Assembly: GCA_919902665.1 (NCBI GenBank)
Contig: CAKKRK010000028.1
Span: 17,668-81,667, forward strand
Reading direction: 5' to 3'
DNA from: Nitrospiraceae bacterium
Lineage (GTDB): Bacteria; Nitrospirota; Nitrospiria; Nitrospirales; Nitrospiraceae
DNA: 64,000 bases
Shown here: positions 22,054-32,493 of the stretch, in pieces
How positions within the stretch are numbered: the first letter of the stretch is position 1
Layout: the number at the start of each line of letters is the position of its first letter
Notes under the pieces: generated by a model
Databases searched by the model: none
Seen by the model: the letters and a program-made list of their open reading frames with translations, nothing else
Told to the model about the DNA's origin: nothing
Position numbers and translations under genes: made by a program

Positions 22054-23613
22054 ATGGCGAAGAAAGAAAAGCCAGGCTCTAAACAAGACACCGGTGCCAA
22101 CCTCGGGTTCGAAGCCAAGCTGTGGCAGATGGCTGATGGACTCCGCAATAACATGGATGCGGCGGAGTACAAGCATGTCGTGCTCGGCCTGATCTTTTTG
22201 AAATACATCTCCGATGCGTTTGAGGCCAAGCATGCTGAACTTGAGGCGCAAAAGAAGCAGGGCGCTGATCCCGAAGATCCAGACGAATATAAGGCCGTGA
22301 GGATTTTCTGGGTACCAAAAGAGGCGCGGTGGTCACATCTCAAGGCCAGCGCCCCGCAACCGACGATCGGTACGGTCGTCGATGATGCGATGAGCGCCAT
22401 CGAGCGTGATAACCCGTCGCTCAAGGGCGTACTACCGAAAGACTTTGGACGAACAGGCCTCGACAAGCAGCGGCTTGGCCAGCTCATTAATCTCGTCTCT
22501 GACATCGCACTTGGTAGCCCAGCAGATCGTGCGAAGGACACACTTGGCCGCGTCTACGAGTACTTCCTCTCACAATTCGCCAGTGCGGAGGGCAAGAAAG
22601 GCGGGCAGTTCTACACACCGTCGCGAGTCGTCCGTGTGCTGGTTGAAATGCTTGCGCCCTACAAGGGGCGCGTCTATGACCCCTGCTGCGGTTCGGGCGG
22701 CATGTTTGTCAGCAGTGAAAAGTTCATCGAAGCCCACAGTGGCAAGCTCGGCGACATCTCCATCTACGGACAGGAGTCGAACTACACCACCTGGCGTCTG
22801 GCTAAGATGAACCTCGCCATCCGGGGGATCGACGCGCAGATTGGCCACGGCGATACCTTTCACCATGACGCGCATCCTGATTTGAAGGCCGACTATGTGT
22901 TGGCGAACCCGCCCTTCAATGACAGTGACTGGCGCGGTGAACTGTTGAAGGACGACAAGCGCTGGGTCTACGGCACGCCGCCCGCAGGCAACGCCAACTA
23001 CGCCTGGGTGCAGCACTTCATCCACCACCTCGCGCCCACTGGGCTGGCAGGGTTTGTTTTGGCCAATGGCTCGATGTCATCCAATCAATCCAATGAGGGT
23101 GAAATTAGGAAGGCCATCATCGAGGCTGACTTGGTGGATTGCATGGTCGCACTGCCGGGGCAATTGTTCTACTCGACGCAGATTCCGGTGTGCCTCTGGT
23201 TCCTTGCGCGCAACAAAAAGAACGGCCGCTTCCGTGACCGTCGTGGTGAGACTCTGTTCATCGATGCTCGCAAGATGGGGACGCTGATTGACCGGGTCCA
23301 TCGAGAATTGACAGACGAGGATGTCGCTAAAATTTCCGGTACCTACCATGCTTGGCGTGGGGATAAAGGCGCTGGCGACTACGAAGACGTGGCTGGTTTC
23401 TGCAAAGCAGCAAAGCTGGAAGATATCCGTAAGCACGGCCATGTGCTGACCCCTGGCCGCTACGTGGGCGCGGAGGCCGTCGAGGATGATGGAGAGCCGT
23501 TCGAGGACAAGATGAAACGGCTCACCGCCACGTTGCGTGAACAACAGGCTGAAGCTGCGAAGCTCGACGTAGCCATTGCCGCTAACCTGAAGGAACTGGG
23601 GTATGGCGGGTAA
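22054..23613 (+). CDS. hsdM: Type I restriction-modification system methyltransferase subunit HsdM
   Basis: [51 protein letters not shown]. Confidence 0.96.
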
Positions 23614-24781
23614 GCGGACGCGCGGAGCAACCACCGTCCGTTCCGGCTTTGCGGCCCTGGTTACCGAGGTCAAAGGCCGCATCCAGGCAGCCCAGACCCG
23701 CGCGATGCTCGCGGTCAATGCCGAGCTCGTCCGTCTCTACTGGGACATCGGGCGCATTATCGACGAACGCCAGCAGCGCGAAGGGTGGGGTGCTGCCGTC
23801 ATCCCCCGGCTGGCGTCGGAACTCAGAAACGAATTGCCGGAATTGAAGGGATTCTCTGAGCGAAACATCAAGCTGATGCTGGCCTTTTACCGTGCATATC
23901 CCAATCCAGGTGAGTTTGTGCAACGGGCTGTTGCACCATTGCCTGGCGCCACGAAATCGCCACAACTGGTGGCGAAAATCCGTCCATCTGAGAAAGTGCA
24001 ACCGCCGGTTGCACAATTGCCTGCGACGATGTTTTGGACAGTCCCCTGGGCGCATCACGTCATCATCGTGCAAAAGGTCAAGGACCTCTCCACGCGCCGC
24101 TGGTACATGGAGCAGACACTCGCCAACGGCTGGAGTCGCAATATCCTCGCTCTGCAGATCGACGCGCAGGCCCACGCTCGCCACGGCAAGGCTGTTTCCA
24201 ACTTCGCCGCGATACTGCCTGCGCCGCAGTCCGACCTTGTCCAGCAGACGCTCAAAGACCCCTACATGTTCGACTTTCTTACCCTCGCTGAGCCGTTCCA
24301 TGAACGCGAACTCGAAACCGCACTCGTCCGCCACCTGGAGAAATTCCTGCTTGAGCTCGGGCAGGGTTTTGCCTTCGTTGGCCGGCAATATCGGCTTGAC
24401 GTGGGCAACGAAGACTTCTATATCGACCTGCTCTTCTACCACCTGCGCCTGCGCGCCTTTATCGTCATCGACTTGAAGAAGGGCAAGTTCAAGCCTGAGT
24501 ACGCCGGCAAGCTCAACTTCTATTGCAATGTCGTCAACGACCGGCTCAAGCACGCAACCGACGCCCCGACCATCGGTCTGATTCTGTGTCAGACAAAGGA
24601 TCATCTGCTCGCCGAATACAGTGTTGCCGGCATCGACAAACCGATCGGCATCTCGACGTATGAACTGACGCGGGCATTGCCGAAGAAGCTACAGTCGGTG
24701 CTGCCGACCGTGGAGGAGATCGAGGCGGAGTTGTCCGGAGAATCGCGTGGCATGTCACGGCCAAGACGGAGGAAATCGTGA
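23603..24781 (+). CDS. YhcG/DUF1016 family PDDEXK nuclease
   Basis: N-terminal [20 protein letters not shown]...[19 protein letters not shown]-terminal [42 protein letters not shown]. Overlaps the hsdM stop. Confidence 0.92.
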
Positions 24782-24906: not shown

Positions 24907-25329
24907 ATGATCGATTACGACAAGCTTCAGAAAGCACTCAAACATTTGGAAGAGCAATATGCCAACCACAAACAGGCACCGAACCGTCCCGAACTGACCG
25001 AGATCGATCGGCAGGGCATCGCGGAATCCGTCATTCAGCGATTCGAAACCTGCTACGACACCCTGTGGAAAGACCTCAAACGCTACCTCATCGAAGAAAT
25101 TGGCCTGGCGGATGTCCCCAACAGCCCCAAGCCGCTGTTGAAGCTGGCCGGGCAGAACGAGCTCTTTGCCACCCCGGTTGAACAATGGCTCACATACGCC
25201 GACGCCCGCACCAGCACCGCCCATGACTACAGCGGAGAAAAGGCAAAGGAAACCCTCGCCCTCATGGGCGATTTCATCGATGACGCCATCGGCCTCTATC
25301 AGACGATGACAGGAACCACGTGGGAATGA
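24907..25329 (+). CDS. HepT/HI0074-like HEPN domain protein (nucleotidyltransferase substrate-binding family)
   Basis: MIDYDKLQKALKHLEEQY...FETCYDTLWKDLKRYLIEEIG...WLTYADARTSTAHDYSGEKAKE; intact RX4HXY motif. Start at internal ATG 24907. Confidence 0.85.
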   Translation: MIDYDKLQKALKHLEEQYANHKQAPNRPELTEIDRQGIAESVIQRFETCYDTLWKDLKRYLIEEIGLADVPNSPKPLLKLAGQNELFATPVEQWLTYADARTSTAHDYSGEKAKETLALMGDFIDDAIGLYQTMTGTTWE

Positions 25330-27029
25330 CCGATGCCATAGACCTCACAACAGAGCAGCGCACCACACTGAGCATGCTCTTGGGACAGTTCCTTCCCGGC
25401 GTCGCCGTGTGGGCCTATGGCTCACGCGTAAAATGGACCGCTCGTCCCAACTCCGACCTCGATCTCGTCGCCTTTACCACCCCAGCCCAACACCATCAGG
25501 TAGCAGAGATCAAGGACGCGCTGGCCGAAAGTAATCTACCCTTTCCGGTGGACCTCCATGTCTGGGATGAAGTGCCAGAGCGCTTCCGCGAGATCATCCG
25601 CAAGGAATATGTGGTGGTGCAGGAGGCCAAACTACCGGAAAGCAAAACGAGTATGCCGGGTGAGTGGCCTGAGGTGACGACGTTCGCCAATCTCATCGAA
25701 GAGGGTGCACTGGAGATCGGAGATGGCTATCGGGCCAAGAACGAGGAACTTGGTGGTGATGGCCTGATCTTTCTCCGGGCCGGGCACGTGACCGATTCAC
25801 ACATTAACTTCACTGGCGTCGAACGTTTCCACGCTGCGTTGGAAGCACGAGTTCGCTCGAAGCTTTCGATGCCTGGAGACGCCGTCGTGACAACAAAAGG
25901 CAATAGCACCGGAAGAACGACGTTCGTGACATCCTCAATGCCGCGGTTCGTCTACTCACCACACTTGAGCTACTGGCGCAGTAAAGATCGCAACCGTATC
26001 GAGGGTGGTTTTCTTCGCTACTGGAGCAAGGGTTCTGAGTTTTCCGAGCAACTCTCTGGGATGAAGGCTTCTACCGATATGGCGCCGTACCTCAGCTTGA
26101 TTGACCAGAAGCGGCTCCGAATATCGCTACCTCCAATCGTTGAACAACGTGCCATTGCCCACATCCTTGGCCAGCTGGACGACAAAATTGAGCTAAACCG
26201 ACGGATGAACGAAACGCTGGAGGCGATGGTGCGGACGCTCTTCAAGTCGTGGTTCGTGGACTTCGACCCAGTCCATGCCAAGGCCGAGGGTCGCGATTCA
26301 TGTCTACCAAAGCACCTGGCTACTTTGTTCCCCGATTCCTTCGAGGACTCGGAGCTGGGGGAGATTCCGAGGGGGTGGGAACTGCGAACTATCGAAGAGC
26401 TTTCGGAACAAGTCGCAATGGGCCCCTTCGGCTCCTCAATTAAGATTTCCACTTTTGTGTCGGAGGGTGTGCCCGTGATCAGCGGTCAGCATCTTCGAGG
26501 CACCTTGCTTGATGATTCAGAGTTCAACTTCATAACTGAAGAGCACGCTGATCAGCTCAAGCGATCCAATGTTCAGCGAGGCGATGTCATCTTTACTCAT
26601 GCAGGTAGTATCGGCCAAGTTGCTTATATTCCTGAAACGTCACGCCATGAGCGCTACATCATCTCGCAGCGCCAGTTTTATATGCGATGCAATCCAACGA
26701 AGGTGTCGCCGCTATTCATCGTCTCCTACTTCAAAACCCCAGGAGGCCAACATAGGTTGTTGGCTAACACCTCATCGACAGGGGTACCGTCGATTTCACA
26801 GCCTGTCAGTTACCTTCGTCACCTCCAAATTGTTCTACCTCCTCATGATCTGTTGAACATTTTCGATTCGGCCGCTCGATCAATCTATCGTACCGTCGCG
26901 CACAATGAGAACCAATCTCGAGCACTTACGAGTCTGCGAGACACGCTACTGCCCAAGCTCATCTCCGGCGAGCTGCGAGTTCAGGATATGAACCGCTTCG
27001 AAAAAGGAATGCAACATGGCCACAACTGA
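25320..27029 (+). CDS. hsdS: Fusion protein: N-terminal MntA-like nucleotidyltransferase domain + type I RM specificity subunit HsdS
   Basis: Residues ~1-105: [29 protein letters not shown] (GSX10DXD). Remainder: two TRD/coiled-coil modules ([61 protein letters not shown]...[17 protein letters not shown]). Confidence 0.92.
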
Positions 27030-27465
27030 CTTGCCGCAATCTGAAGCAGATGCCCTGATCGCGCTAGCCAAGGTCAAGGTTAATGACGATTCGTATGACT
27101 ACCCTGGGACCGGCGGATCGCTCGTTGTGCCGCTCACATCGCAAGATAAACGCGAGGATTTCCTGCTAGACATTTATCGTGGACGAATTGATCTGCTGAA
27201 AGGTACGTACCAGAACCGTGCTCGTCAGGTTATCATCCTTGTTCGAGTCGATTTCGGCGGCGCGCCTCATCGCAATCCAGACGGAGAAGAAGTGCTATGT
27301 CCCCACTTGCATCTGTATCGCGAAGGGTTTGGCGATAAATGGGCTGTGCCTCTGCCAGCAGATCTGTTCCCCAACGTCAACGATCTGTGGCTGACACTCG
27401 AAGACTTTATGCGGTTTTGCAACGTTGTTGATCCGCCTGCAATTGCGCGAGGACTGTTCATATGA
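27016..27465 (+). CDS. DUF6978-like hypothetical protein
   Basis: [14 protein letters not shown] ... [34 protein letters not shown]...[36 protein letters not shown]; overlaps the hsdS stop. Family name from recollection. Confidence 0.65.
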
Positions 27466-28229
27466 TTGACCAGGTGCAAGAGTTGCTTGATCAGTATTGG
27501 GCTTGGTTGAAGGATAAGACCAAGCTGCGTGACGTAGGAGGAGAATGGGTAGAGATTACAACCCCTCATCTCGATCGGCATAATGACTACCTGCAAATTT
27601 ATGCACGCCGTCAGAATGGCACCCTTGTGCTAACCGACGACGGCTACATCATTGGCGACCTCAATCGAAGCGGCTGCAGGCTCGATAGCCATAAGCGGCA
27701 AGCCCTGTTGAATATGACGCTTGCAGGGTTCGGCGTTCAGCTTATTGATGGACGGCTTGAAGTCCATGCGTCTCCAGAAAACTTTGCTATACGGAAGCAC
27801 AATCTGTTGCAAGCCATGCTCGCGGTAAATGATCTCTTCTTTCTTTCAATCCCTATGGTCGCGAGCTTGTTCTACGAGGATGTTGTTGCGTGGCTCGATG
27901 CTAGTGACATTCGGTATACGCCGAACATCAAATTTACAGGCAAGAGCGGTTATGACCACCTCTTTGACTTTGTTATCCCCAAATCGCGAAGGCAGCCTGA
28001 GCGGATTCTCCACACGATCACGCGGCCAAGTAAGGATACGGCAGAAGCAGCGGCGTTCAAGTGGATTGACACAAGAGACGTACGTTCACCCGAGTCTCGT
28101 GCCTACGCACTCCTCAACGATCAGGAGCAACGTGTTCCGCAAGGGGTGCTGGACGCCTTGTCTAACTACGATATACGTCCGGTGGTTTGGAGCGGTCGAG
28201 AGCAAATCAGGGAAGAATTAGCCGCCTAG
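27462..28229 (+). CDS. DUF1828/DUF1829-like protein
   Basis: N-terminal [41 protein letters not shown] (DUF1828-like); C-terminal [49 protein letters not shown] (DUF1829-like). Confidence 0.8.
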
Positions 28230-28245
28230 GTCTGCCGGTCCGTAT

Positions 28246-28965
28246 ATGGCCGAAATATCTATCATTAGTGATTTTAGGATGTACGGCGCAAGAGAGGCGA
28301 TGGCTTCTGGAATGGTTCACATTGAAGAGCAGGTCAAGGGGTTGGAACGGTCCGTGACAGAGAATCCTGGTCTAGCGTTCGATCTTGCCAAGACCCTTCT
28401 CGAAAGCACCTGCAAGACCATCCTGAGTGAGCGGAAGCTTGCCTTCTCTCCGGATGATGACCTCCCCAAGCTATTCAAAATGGTGACTAAGCATCTCCCG
28501 TTTCTGCCGGAGTCATCTGCCAACGAAGCTGACGCAAGAAAAAGGCTATCTCAGACACTTGGCGGGCTCCATACGTCGCTGGTTGGTGTGTGCGAACTCA
28601 GAAACTCGTACGGATTTGCATCTCACGGAAGTGAATCTCAGCGACCAGTTATGGCTGGCGCACAGGCGATCCTAGCAGCTCAGGCGGCTGATACCATCAT
28701 TGGTTTCTTGCATCGAGTTCATCGTCAGGACGCGGTTAGAGATACGTCCTCGAAGTTTACGTACGAAGACAATCAAGACTTCAACGACTACGTGGATTTC
28801 GCCAATGAGCCAGCTCAGATATTTCATCTGGAGTACAAGGCAAGCGAAGTGCTCTTTAACGTGGACCAGGAAGCCTATAAAGACTTGCTTGCCAACTACT
28901 CGGGTGATGATATCGATCAGGCCAATCAGTCAGCCGATAGTGGAGAAGCGGAGAGTCCTCGGTGA
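28246..28965 (+). CDS. Abi-C-like abortive infection family protein
   Basis: [17 protein letters not shown]...[24 protein letters not shown]...[17 protein letters not shown] resembles the Abi-C C-terminal domain. Confidence 0.78.
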
Positions 28966-31900
28966 ATAGTGCGGGTTTTGCAGAATCGGTGGTCGAGCAG
29001 GCAGCTCTTGCGTGGCTGGAGGCGCTGGGCTACACAGTGCTGCATGGCCCGGACATCGCCGCAGGCGAACCTAGCGCCGAGCGCAGCGATCCAAACTACC
29101 GTGACGCGATTCTGGAGAGGCGTCTGCGGGAGGCGCTTGTCCGGCTTAATCCAGACCTTCCACCAGAGGCCATCGAAGATGCTTTCCGGAAGCTCACACG
29201 GTTCGATTCGCCTTCATTAGTTGAACGGAACCGTATGGTCCATCGGATGCTTGTCGATGGAGTAACCGTTGAGTATCGCCGGAAAGACGGTTCAATTGCA
29301 GGTGCCCAAGCTCGTGTGCTGGATTATGGGACTCCGGACAAGAACGACTGGCTGGTGGTAAATCAGTTCACGGTTAGCGAAGGGCAGCATACTCGTCGGC
29401 CTGACGTGGTGCTGTTCGTCAATGGGTTGCCACTGGCGGTGATCGAACTCAAGAATCCTGTCGACGAGAACGCCACTGTTGAAGTGGCCATTCAGCAGCT
29501 GGATACCTATCAGGCACAAATCCCGGCGCTTTTTGCTACCAACGCAGCACTGGTGTCGTCTGACGGAAGATATGCGCGAATCGGTGTGCTCGGGGCTGGG
29601 AAAGAATGGTTTAAGCCCTGGCGAACGATTGCAGGGGTTCAGGATGCGTCTCCTACGATTTCCGAGCTGCAAGTTATCCTGGAAGGAGTCTTTGAAAAAC
29701 GACGGTTCCTCGACCTGGTGCGGCATTTCTTTGTCTTCGAAGACGAGGGCCATGGAAAGCTTAGTAAGAAGATGGCGGGCTACCATCAATTCCATGCGGT
29801 GAATGTGGCGGTCGAGGAAACCTTGCGGGCTGCTCAGCGCGTGACAGAGCACCGGGCTGCCGATGCTCTGGGAACGTACAAGTCGGGGCACCAACCGGGC
29901 GGTGAACTTGGCGATCGTCGGGTGGGCGTGGTGTGGCATACACAGGGATCGGGGAAGAGCCTGACGATGGCCTTCTACGCGGGGCGAGTCATCCTGCATC
30001 CGACGATGGCCAACCCAACCATCGTCGTGCTTACCGATCGCAATGACCTCGACGATCAACTCTTCGGTACCTTCGCTCGGTGCCGTGACCTTCTCCGGCA
30101 GGACCCTGTTCAGGCGACCGACCGGGCTGACTTGCGTGCCAAGTTGAGCGTGGCTTCAGGCGGCGTGGTGTTCACCACCATTCAGAAGTTCTTCCCCGAA
30201 GAAAAGGGCGATCGGCATCCTGTGCTTTCGGAGCGCCGCAACATCGTCGTGATTGCGGACGAGGCCCATCGGAGCCAGTATGACTTTATCGACGGCTTTG
30301 CCCGCCACATGCGTGATGCGTTGCCCAATGCGTCGTTCATTGGATTCACCGGCACACCCATCGAAAAGACCGATGCCAATACACGGGCGGTCTTTGGCGA
30401 TTACATCAGCATCTACGACATCCAGCGGGCAGTCATTGATAAAGCCACGGTTCCCATCTACTACGAGAGTCGGCTGGCAAAGCTGGAACTGAAAGCATCC
30501 GAGCGGCCCAAGATCGATCCCAAGTTTGAAGAGGCCACAGAAGGCGAAGAGGTCGAGCGCAAGGAGAAGCTCAAGACCAAGTGGGCGCAGCTGGAAGCCG
30601 TGGTGGGGTCGGAGAATCGGATTAAGTTGATCGCGCAAGACCTCGTTGATCACTTCGAAGATCGTCTTGCTGCCATGGATGGGAAGGCCATGGTGGTCTG
30701 TATGAGCCGGAGGATCTGTGTGGAACTGTACCGTGAGATCACCGCCCTGCGCCCACAATGGCATGCCGATGCGGATGACCAAGGGTCGATGAAGGTGATT
30801 ATGACCGGCTCGCCGTCCGACCCGATCGAGTGGCAGGGCCATATCCGGAATAAGAAACGCCGGGAGGACATGGCGCTTCGGTTCCGTGCTCCCAAAGATC
30901 CCTTTCGGCTCGTCATTGTTCGTGACATGTGGCTGACTGGGTTTGATGCGCCGAGTCTCCATACGATGTATCTCGATAAGCCGATGCGCGGGCATGGGCT
31001 CATGCAGACCATTGCCCGGGTGAACCGTGTGTTCAAAGATAAGCCTGGCGGACTAGTTGTCGATTACCTTGGTCTCGCCGACGAACTTAAGCAGGCGCTT
31101 GCGACCTATACAGAAAGCGGTGGGACCGGAAAGACCGCGATCGACCAGGCCGAAGCCGTCGCGGTGATGTTGGAAAAGTATGAAATCTGCCAAGGTCTTT
31201 TTCATAGTTTTGACTGGTCGCCCTGGATGACCGGCAAGCCGCAAGAGCGACTCTCGGTCTTACCTGCTGCACAAGAGCATATCTTGAGGCAACAGGATGG
31301 CAAAGCACGTCTTCTTCGTGCTGTGAACGATCTCTCGCAAGCCTTTGCGTTGGCTGTGCCGCATGAGGAGACCTTTCGGATTCGGGACGACGTCGGATTC
31401 TTCCAGGCGGTGCGTGCGGTGTTGGCGAAGAGTACGCCGGGCGACCAGAAGACTGACGAAGAGCTCGACCATGCCATTCGCCAGATCATTTCAAAGGCGG
31501 TGGTGTCCGACGAGATTATGGACATCTTTGCGGCTGCAGGGCTCAAGAAGCCAGATCTCTCGATCCTCTCCGATGAGTTTCTCGCCGAAGTGCGCGAAAT
31601 GCCGCAGAAGAACTTGGCTGTCGAACTGTTGCGGAAGTTGCTGAGTGGAGAGATTAAGGTGCGGTTGCGCAGGAATGTGGTGCAGGCCAAGTCCTTTGCG
31701 GAGATGTTGGAACAAGCGGTGCGGAAGTACCAGAACCGGGCGATTGAGGCCGCGCAGGTGATCGAGGAAATGATCGGCTTGGCCAAGGACATGCGCCGAG
31801 CCCATGAGCGGGGAGAACGTCTTGGGCTGACCGAGGAAGAGATGGCCTTCTATGATGCGCTCGAAACCAACGACAGCGCGGTGAAGGTCCTGGGGGATGA

Positions 31901-32108
31901 GACGTTGCGGACTATTGCGCGAGAAGTGGCGGAGGCCGTTCGCAAGAATGTCACGATCGACTGGACGGTTCGAGAAAACGTTCGGGCCCAGCTCCGCGTG
32001 ATTGTGAAGCGGATTCTCAGAAAGTACGGCTATCCGCCTGACAAGCAAGAAAAAGCGACTCAAACTGTGTTGGAACAGGCCGAAGTGCTGTGTGCTGAAG
32101 TTTATTGA
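28962..32108 (+). CDS. hsdR: Type I restriction endonuclease subunit HsdR
   Basis: [20 protein letters not shown] nuclease core; [84 protein letters not shown]. Confidence 0.97.
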
Positions 32109-32420
32109 AGATCAGAAATGGATGAGGGGCAGATCTTGAATCGTGCATGTTCTTTCTAACGTAGTCCACAGTCAAGCCAACCAGGGAGCATGAGGGGATG
32201 CCATGGGTGCTGCACGCGTGGGTGAGGAACGAGAGGACTCTCTCATGGAGTGTTGCGTTGGCTTGTGTGGGGTTATCTTAGGAAGAATGTTGCGCCTGAT
32301 GAGGCGACGGGACGAGCAAGCTTGGTATTAAAGCGGAAGAAACACCCAAGGGGTTTCTCCGTCGACCGTGATTACGATAAAGCAAAAATGAGTTGGCGGG
32401 TCACACGAAGTGCGGTTTGG

Positions 32421-32493
32421 TGGCGGTGGGCCGGATTGAACGGCCGACCCGCGGCTTATGAGTCCGCTGCTCTGCCAACTGAGCTACACCGCC
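32421..32493 (-). tRNA. tRNA with CAU anticodon (tRNA-Met or lysidine-modified tRNA-Ile2)
   Basis: Reverse complement GGCGGTGTAGCTCAGTTGGCAGAGCAGCGGACTCATAAGCCGCGGGTCGGCCGTTCAATCCGGCCCACCGCCA: 7-bp acceptor stem, GCTC/GAGC D-stem, CTCATAA loop, GGCCG/CGGCC T-stem. Confidence 0.93.

Follow-up and report, generated by a model that had tools for sequence, protein, structure and literature searches.

Genes for toxin-antitoxin systems frequently lie close to defence genes, and a guarding role for them is usually arguable. In the type VII HepT/MntA system of Shewanella (SO_3166/SO_3165), a HEPN protein with an RX4HXY motif adjoins a nucleotidyltransferase (NT) with a GSX10DXD motif, and inactivation is covalent, by AMPylation (PMC7641770). 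Class I of these HEPN/MNT pairs takes in PF08780/PF01909 pairs, and both the HI0074/PF08780 branch of HEPN proteins and the DUF86 branch, to which the Shewanella HepT belongs, have been placed in it when the two motifs are present (Yao et al. 2020, PMC7641770). HI0073/HI0074 of Haemophilus influenzae is a stand-alone pair of the same kind. With regard to guards of immune systems, PrrC, an ABC-ATPase-HEPN anticodon nuclease encoded in a type I hsd operon, is kept inactive by EcoPrrI, a type IC enzyme, until T4 Stp frees it (PMC3710099; PMC12707154), and CreTA, which guards CRISPR-Cas, is an addiction module with an RNA toxin repressed by Cascade, in which the antitoxin acts only through the immune effector (PMC9458426). 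It was predicted in 2013, with PrrC as the model, that HEPN families linked to restriction-modification (R-M) serve as a suicidal backup; the same survey describes HEPN proteins that are themselves fused to nucleases and helicases, and HsdS is absent from its text (PMC3710099). A review (PMC12707154) covers the R-M guards PrrC and PARIS.

Our study concerns a window of 64,000 nucleotides (GCA_919902665.1, contig CAKKRK010000028.1, positions 17,668 to 81,667) from the genome of a Nitrospiraceae bacterium, assigned to the genus Nitrospira from the names of near-identical relatives, in which an enzyme of the MNT antitoxin type forms the N-terminal domain of a type I specificity subunit, HsdS, directly downstream of a HEPN gene. 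We consider it probable that this is a HepT/MntA-like (type VII) toxin-antitoxin system within a type I R-M operon, with the antitoxin enzyme as the N-terminal domain of HsdS, serving as an addiction device for the methyltransferase. The locus resembles HepT/MntA in that an RX4HXY HEPN adjoins a GSX10DXD NT and the folds match; it differs in that the antitoxin is an HsdS domain rather than a free small protein, and the HEPN gene comes first and encodes a protein of the HI0074 branch. As with PrrC, a HEPN RNase is encoded in a type I hsd operon and is predicted to be kept harmless by it, although here the HEPN is separate and the predicted covalent modifier is fused to HsdS. The likeness to CreTA lies in an antitoxin that would act only through the immune effector, whereas a protein toxin and an effector-fused enzyme are predicted here.

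The genes of the operon are arranged in the order hsdM-DUF1016-HEPN-NT:HsdS-DUF6978-DUF1828/1829-Abi_C-hsdR, all on the forward strand. HsdM (22054-23613; PF02384 5e-110, PF12161 2e-27), HsdR (28962-32108; TIGR00348 8e-173) and an HsdS with two target recognition domains (TRDs) lie within this one operon, which is a type I R-M system as judged from its genes, and a tRNA-Met on the reverse strand (32418-32493; ARAGORN, Rfam) marks its downstream end. Four additional candidate defence genes are situated between hsdM and hsdR (23603-24781 and 27016-28965): a DUF1016/YhcG-type PD-(D/E)XK protein that is the PADLOC candidate PDC-S02 (23603-24781; PF06250 1.5e-64, PDC-S02 1e-141), a DUF6978 protein, candidate PDC-M24A (27016-27465; PF22398 4e-44, PADLOC), a DUF1828/DUF1829 protein, candidate PDC-M24B (27462-28229; Pfam, PADLOC), and an Abi_C domain protein (28246-28965; PF14355 2.5e-15, AbiJ-like 5e-9).

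The fusion is encoded by a single ORF of 569 aa (25320-27029, forward strand) that is uninterrupted by any internal stop codon and contains matches to Polbeta (Pfam, 2.3e-8), PF01909 (5.1e-5) and Methylase_S (3.6e-14, in two stretches). Its first 103 residues (25320-25628) form a minimal NT domain of the HI0073/MntA type, the predicted antitoxin enzyme, with a GSX10DXD catalytic motif of 15 residues at 25419-25463 and Asp78 (25551-25553), which is invariant across 34 fusions, as the probable third catalytic carboxylate. This part matches HI0073, whose structure 1no5 is its closest solved relative, in sequence (E 1.3e-19 against the PDB), and its NCBIfam MntA score of 32.9 bits is below the curated cut-off of 60. 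In the AlphaFold2 model (mean pLDDT 87; models were built on alignments of relatives, with plasmid-derived sequences left out), a folded NT at residues ~10-103 is followed by a disordered linker of about ten residues (104-113, 25629-25658; pLDDT <50) and a normal HsdS. A Foldseek comparison of the NT part gave 1no5 (TM 0.89) and the MNT antitoxin 8xeo (TM 0.83), and the HsdS part matched type I specificity subunits, including models of EcoKI and EcoR124I. A sequence-only reading of this DNA had proposed the fusion, and the single ORF with both families of domains, the predicted fold and the recurrence in relatives described below all bear it out; the gene boundaries, motif positions and 10-bp overlap with the upstream gene that it gave proved to be exact, the overlap being counted from the GTG start at 25320. 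From the in-frame ATG at 25326 the overlap would be 4 bp (ATGA). Internal translation of a free HsdS was considered and rejected: an in-frame ATG does encode residue 112 of the window's fusion, but a junction Met is not conserved among relatives.

The upstream gene (24907-25329, forward strand) encodes a single-domain HEPN protein of 140 aa (PF08780, NTase_sub_bind, 4e-19), a predicted RNase toxin that is not fused to an ABC ATPase. Its RX4HXY motif, RTSTAHDY (25207-25230), would contain the RNase site and Tyr108, the predicted target of AMPylation; in the 30 HEPN proteins aligned, R101 and Y108 are invariant and H106 nearly so. The protein matches HI0074 (1jog) in sequence (E 1e-5 against the PDB), with an NCBIfam HI0074 score of 47.2 bits, below the curated cut-off of 55.8, and 1jog is, together with Thermus TTHA0636 (1wwp), its closest solved relative. 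The structural resemblance expected of both partners is also observed here, since the HEPN model (AlphaFold2, pLDDT 96) matches 1jog (TM 0.83), the AMPylated HEPN toxin 8xdj (TM 0.72), the HEPN-MNT structure 8xeh and MntA-HepT structures. The claim of a HepT/MntA-type pair thus stands as regards a HEPN/MNT pair with both motifs, but its sequence places the HEPN in the HI0074/PF08780 branch and not in the DUF86 branch. As in Class I of type VII, a PF08780 HEPN adjoins an NTP_transf_2 (PF01909) protein, the genes overlap and both motifs are intact, whereas the separate minimal antitoxin protein of that class is replaced by an NT that shares its ORF with HsdS.

A search for the same architecture elsewhere identified about 45 NT-HsdS fusions in more than ten phyla. 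Within the genus Nitrospira, 6 of 80 genomes carry the fusion, a patchy, defence-like distribution. In the phylum Nitrospirota (246 genomes) there are 28 strong NT matches, ten of them in frames longer than 500 aa, and all ten are HsdS. Beyond it, the best 80 of 569 relatives in a GTDB scan include fusions in Pseudomonadota, Acidobacteriota, Verrucomicrobiota, Kiritimatiellota, Bacteroidota, Rhodothermota, KSB1, Roizmanbacteria, Thermodesulfobacteriota and Bdellovibrionota, as well as in Nitrospirota; the frequencies outside Nitrospirota are biased, because they come from a single scan of genome contigs in which relatives were ranked by similarity to the window. The gene order is nearly always hsdM-HEPN-NT:HsdS-hsdR, both in most of the 40 distinct fusions and in G121, G183, G186 and G255. 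It is important to consider that the assembly containing the window is a 240-contig draft, and a frameshift or misassembly joining two genes was the explanation that the sequence-only reading itself had named as refuting its proposal. This artefact can be practically dismissed: three of the fusions lie in single-contig genomes (G060, G053 and G121), another is present in a Zymomonas plasmid record, and the remainder are spread over dozens of unrelated genomes. Searches for relatives in phages found none, and those in viral contigs gave two fragment matches only. In the open-access literature, we found no report of an NT-HsdS fusion or of the Cmr1-MNT fusion described below.

The two partners are conserved to different extents. 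GSX10DXD is intact in all 40 distinct fusions; an adjacent HEPN is present in 37 of them, 35 of which keep RX4HXY. Across the 25 complete loci, NT distances correlate with HEPN distances (Mantel rho 0.68, p 0.002), less with those of HsdM (rho 0.40) and not with those of TRD1 (rho 0.03); the divergence of the NT therefore tracks the HEPN, a separate protein, and not the covalently attached TRD1. When the search started from the HEPN, an adjacent NT was found at 29 of 30 loci (the remaining one lies at the end of a contig), and the only degraded NT adjoins a HEPN without the motif; an NT beside every HEPN away from a contig edge matches the prediction for a toxin that needs its antitoxin. When it started from the NT, NT-HsdS without an intact HEPN was found at L020, L021, L041, L022, L051 and G060. 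The NT is intact in each of the following cases: G011 and G007 have a DUF4258 gene and a CxxC-protein gene in place of the HEPN, L041 retains a HEPN relic of 14 residues, a repeat insert deletes the HxY of the HEPN in G057, and G060 has no HEPN. A HEPN that is lost and an NT that never is form the asymmetry of a toxin and an antitoxin, a pattern that suggests these roles rather than proving them. Together with the intact motifs and the co-divergence, it supports, indirectly, the assignment of the HEPN as the putative toxin and the NT as its putative antitoxin. The same data bear on a different function, in which the HEPN is the substrate-binding subunit of a modifying enzyme whose NT AMPylates a restriction subunit and so regulates restriction. 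HI0073/HI0074 was indeed originally presented as a nucleotidyltransferase made of two proteins, one of which binds the substrate (titles of 1no5/1jog); against this, almost every HEPN protein here retains the RNase motif, while domesticated HEPNs typically lose it (PMC3710099), and the NT persists where the HEPN is gone, which makes a regulatory enzyme very improbable.

Some of these loci have further peculiarities. In two other Nitrospira (L020, 8120-8750; L021, 9310-9950), the slot of the HEPN is occupied by a DUF4258 gene and a gene for a small CxxC (zinc-finger-like) protein, and in L021 a C-terminal relic of the HEPN precedes the start of the fusion. In L011 and L013 (genomes G057 and G051), peptides encoded by repeats (SPLEGES...RRWGD-like) interrupt the HEPN, HsdM and HsdS ORFs without shifting the frame.

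In the mechanism that we propose, the gene directly upstream would supply the HEPN as a free-standing RNase toxin, and the tethered NT domain would transfer AMP from ATP to its Tyr108 and thereby inactivate it, by analogy with HepT/MntA (PMC7641770). We regard it as very likely that the NT modifies the HEPN. The fusion would make the supply of antitoxin equal to the supply of HsdS. If the HEPN gene is tolerated only while NT-HsdS is produced, the gene pair would addict the cell to HsdS, and probably also to the methyltransferase M2S, in which HsdS is stabilised. HsdS is required for both restriction and modification, so that without it both would cease and HEPN synthesised from then on would escape modification. 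That HEPN is toxic, that it is AMPylated and that survival depends on HsdS we infer from these comparisons; the dependence on NT-HsdS seems to us rather likely, and the recurrence of the same joint in many distant bacteria indicates that cells probably depend on keeping the restriction system. Several loci live without the HEPN, so its link to NT-HsdS is not strict.

The sequence-only reading had also suggested that displacement or inhibition of HsdS could release the toxin. Such release is doubtful because AMPylation is covalent: HEPN that is already modified would stay off, and only new HEPN would be unmodified. We know of no reversal of the AMPylation in HepT/MntA. Activation of the HEPN by phage anti-restriction is accordingly a speculative and improbable extension. 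Similar considerations apply to the proposal that the HEPN serves the restriction enzyme as an additional effector: docked on NT-HsdS at rest, it would be set free or switched on when the complex encounters unmodified DNA or an inhibitor, in the manner of abortive infection. The capture of PrrC by EcoPrrI described above is a precedent, and the other candidate defence genes of the operon may be counted in its favour; nevertheless, inactivation in known HepT/MntA pairs is covalent, loss of the HEPN is tolerated, and there is no sensor domain like the ABC ATPase of PrrC, so that we regard a docked effector as quite unlikely.

A further question is whether the fusion matters, as the tethered NT may act like a free one and the fusion could be functionally neutral. 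The NT would then be a self-sufficient antitoxin, and the joint would be no more than a lost stop codon between co-translated genes, which couples their expression and creates no dependence of survival on the function of HsdS. Two features favour this possibility. First, unfused operons exist and are presumably functional: plasmids of Acetobacter (L017, L018) have the order hsdM-HEPN-NT-hsdS-hsdR with the NT as its own gene, and the NT is also unfused at L094 and L095. Second, the linkers are short, disordered and variable, both their sequence and their length differing among relatives. However, fused NTs are polyphyletic, since a single origin was rejected under a one-clade constraint (AU p 0.0015, on 110 columns with long branches), and fusions to Cmr1 also occur. 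One further case of polyphyly is G255 (L186, 7139-10591), whose hsdM-HEPN-NT:HsdS-hsdR operon contains an NT of a distant lineage, scoring 29 bits against the NT model, and a different type of HsdS; its fusion is independent of the other NT-HsdS fusions. In addition, a neutral fusion does not predict the near fixation of a Trp five residues after the G of GS (Trp39 in the window, 25434-25436), which is by far the most discriminating column, occurring in 38 of 40 fused NTs as against 1 of 55 others; stand-alone NTs, HI0073 among them, usually have Gly there. We thus hold a neutral fusion to be a minority possibility, rather unlikely but a serious competitor of the addiction device, which is the reading we prefer.

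The lone non-fused NT with the Trp (L048) is a truncated fusion, and the Trp follows fusion in five of six contrast pairs on well-supported branches (p 0.06). As an exclusive mark of fusion it was rejected, since the fusions of G183 and G186 carry Gly and the solo pair L154 carries Trp; it is enriched only. Fused and other pairs also differ at two positions of the HEPN, in helix 120-135. Restriction operons with two different HEPN-NT pairs were observed as well (L036, L048, L051, L054, L058 and L063), the upstream pair being stand-alone (GSRVNG...) and the other a fusion or a truncated one.

The HsdS part allows the constancy of the NT to be compared with that of the target domains. TRD1 (25668-26129; PADLOC Specificity_I 6e-98, from residue 112) and TRD2 (26355-26879; delimited on the AlphaFold2 model, 14-22% identity within the genus) flank a central conserved region (26130-26354; 75-84% identity within the genus) that forms a coiled coil with a long helix at residues 273-313. 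The TRD1 of the window is 96% identical to that of G060 and about 20% identical to that of most Nitrospira relatives; G060 and the window do not have TRD2 in common (14%), and the other Nitrospira compared have neither domain in common with it. Despite this exchange, the NTs of these Nitrospira fusions are 83-88% identical, so the TRDs are swapped freely under a constant NT. If the addiction device is real, it would account for the resistance to loss of a type I system whose target domains shuffle freely. It would also carry the idea behind PrrC and CreTA over to an antitoxin that is an enzyme, for which CRISPR Cmr1 offers a parallel. As the antitoxin is covalently part of a subunit needed for restriction and modification, this guard or addiction idea is directly testable, by separation of the domains and by mutation of single motifs.

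The parallel was located through the HEPN-first search in the closed genome G116 (L185, 8092-9775), in a type III-B CRISPR operon whose Cmr1 has a C-terminal MNT domain (Cmr1 TIGR01894, 80.5 bits; MntA, 51.5 bits). A PF08780 HEPN gene (RNYLVHTY) overlaps the Cmr1-MNT gene and is followed by a Cas10/Cmr2-like ORF and further Cmr-like genes, the names beyond Cmr1 having been read from translations. The same fusion, with both motifs intact, is found in G217 (L188), G318 (L189) and the closed genome G175 (L190), which brings Cmr1-MNT with an overlapping HEPN to four genomes, each from a different family and two of them (G116 and G175) closed. It is conceivable, although we advance it tentatively, that MNT enzymes have repeatedly been built into subunits of immune complexes (Cmr1 and, through two or more NT lineages, HsdS), where a HEPN RNase from an overlapping gene would police whether the complex is there. 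Guarding or addiction would then follow an enzymatic and covalent principle common to restriction and CRISPR.

As a separate observation, HI0073-type NTs adjoining HEPN genes were also encountered at L151, L152 and L153, in longer frames (about 300-380 aa) whose C-terminal parts are different; one of these frames has a second NT in tandem.
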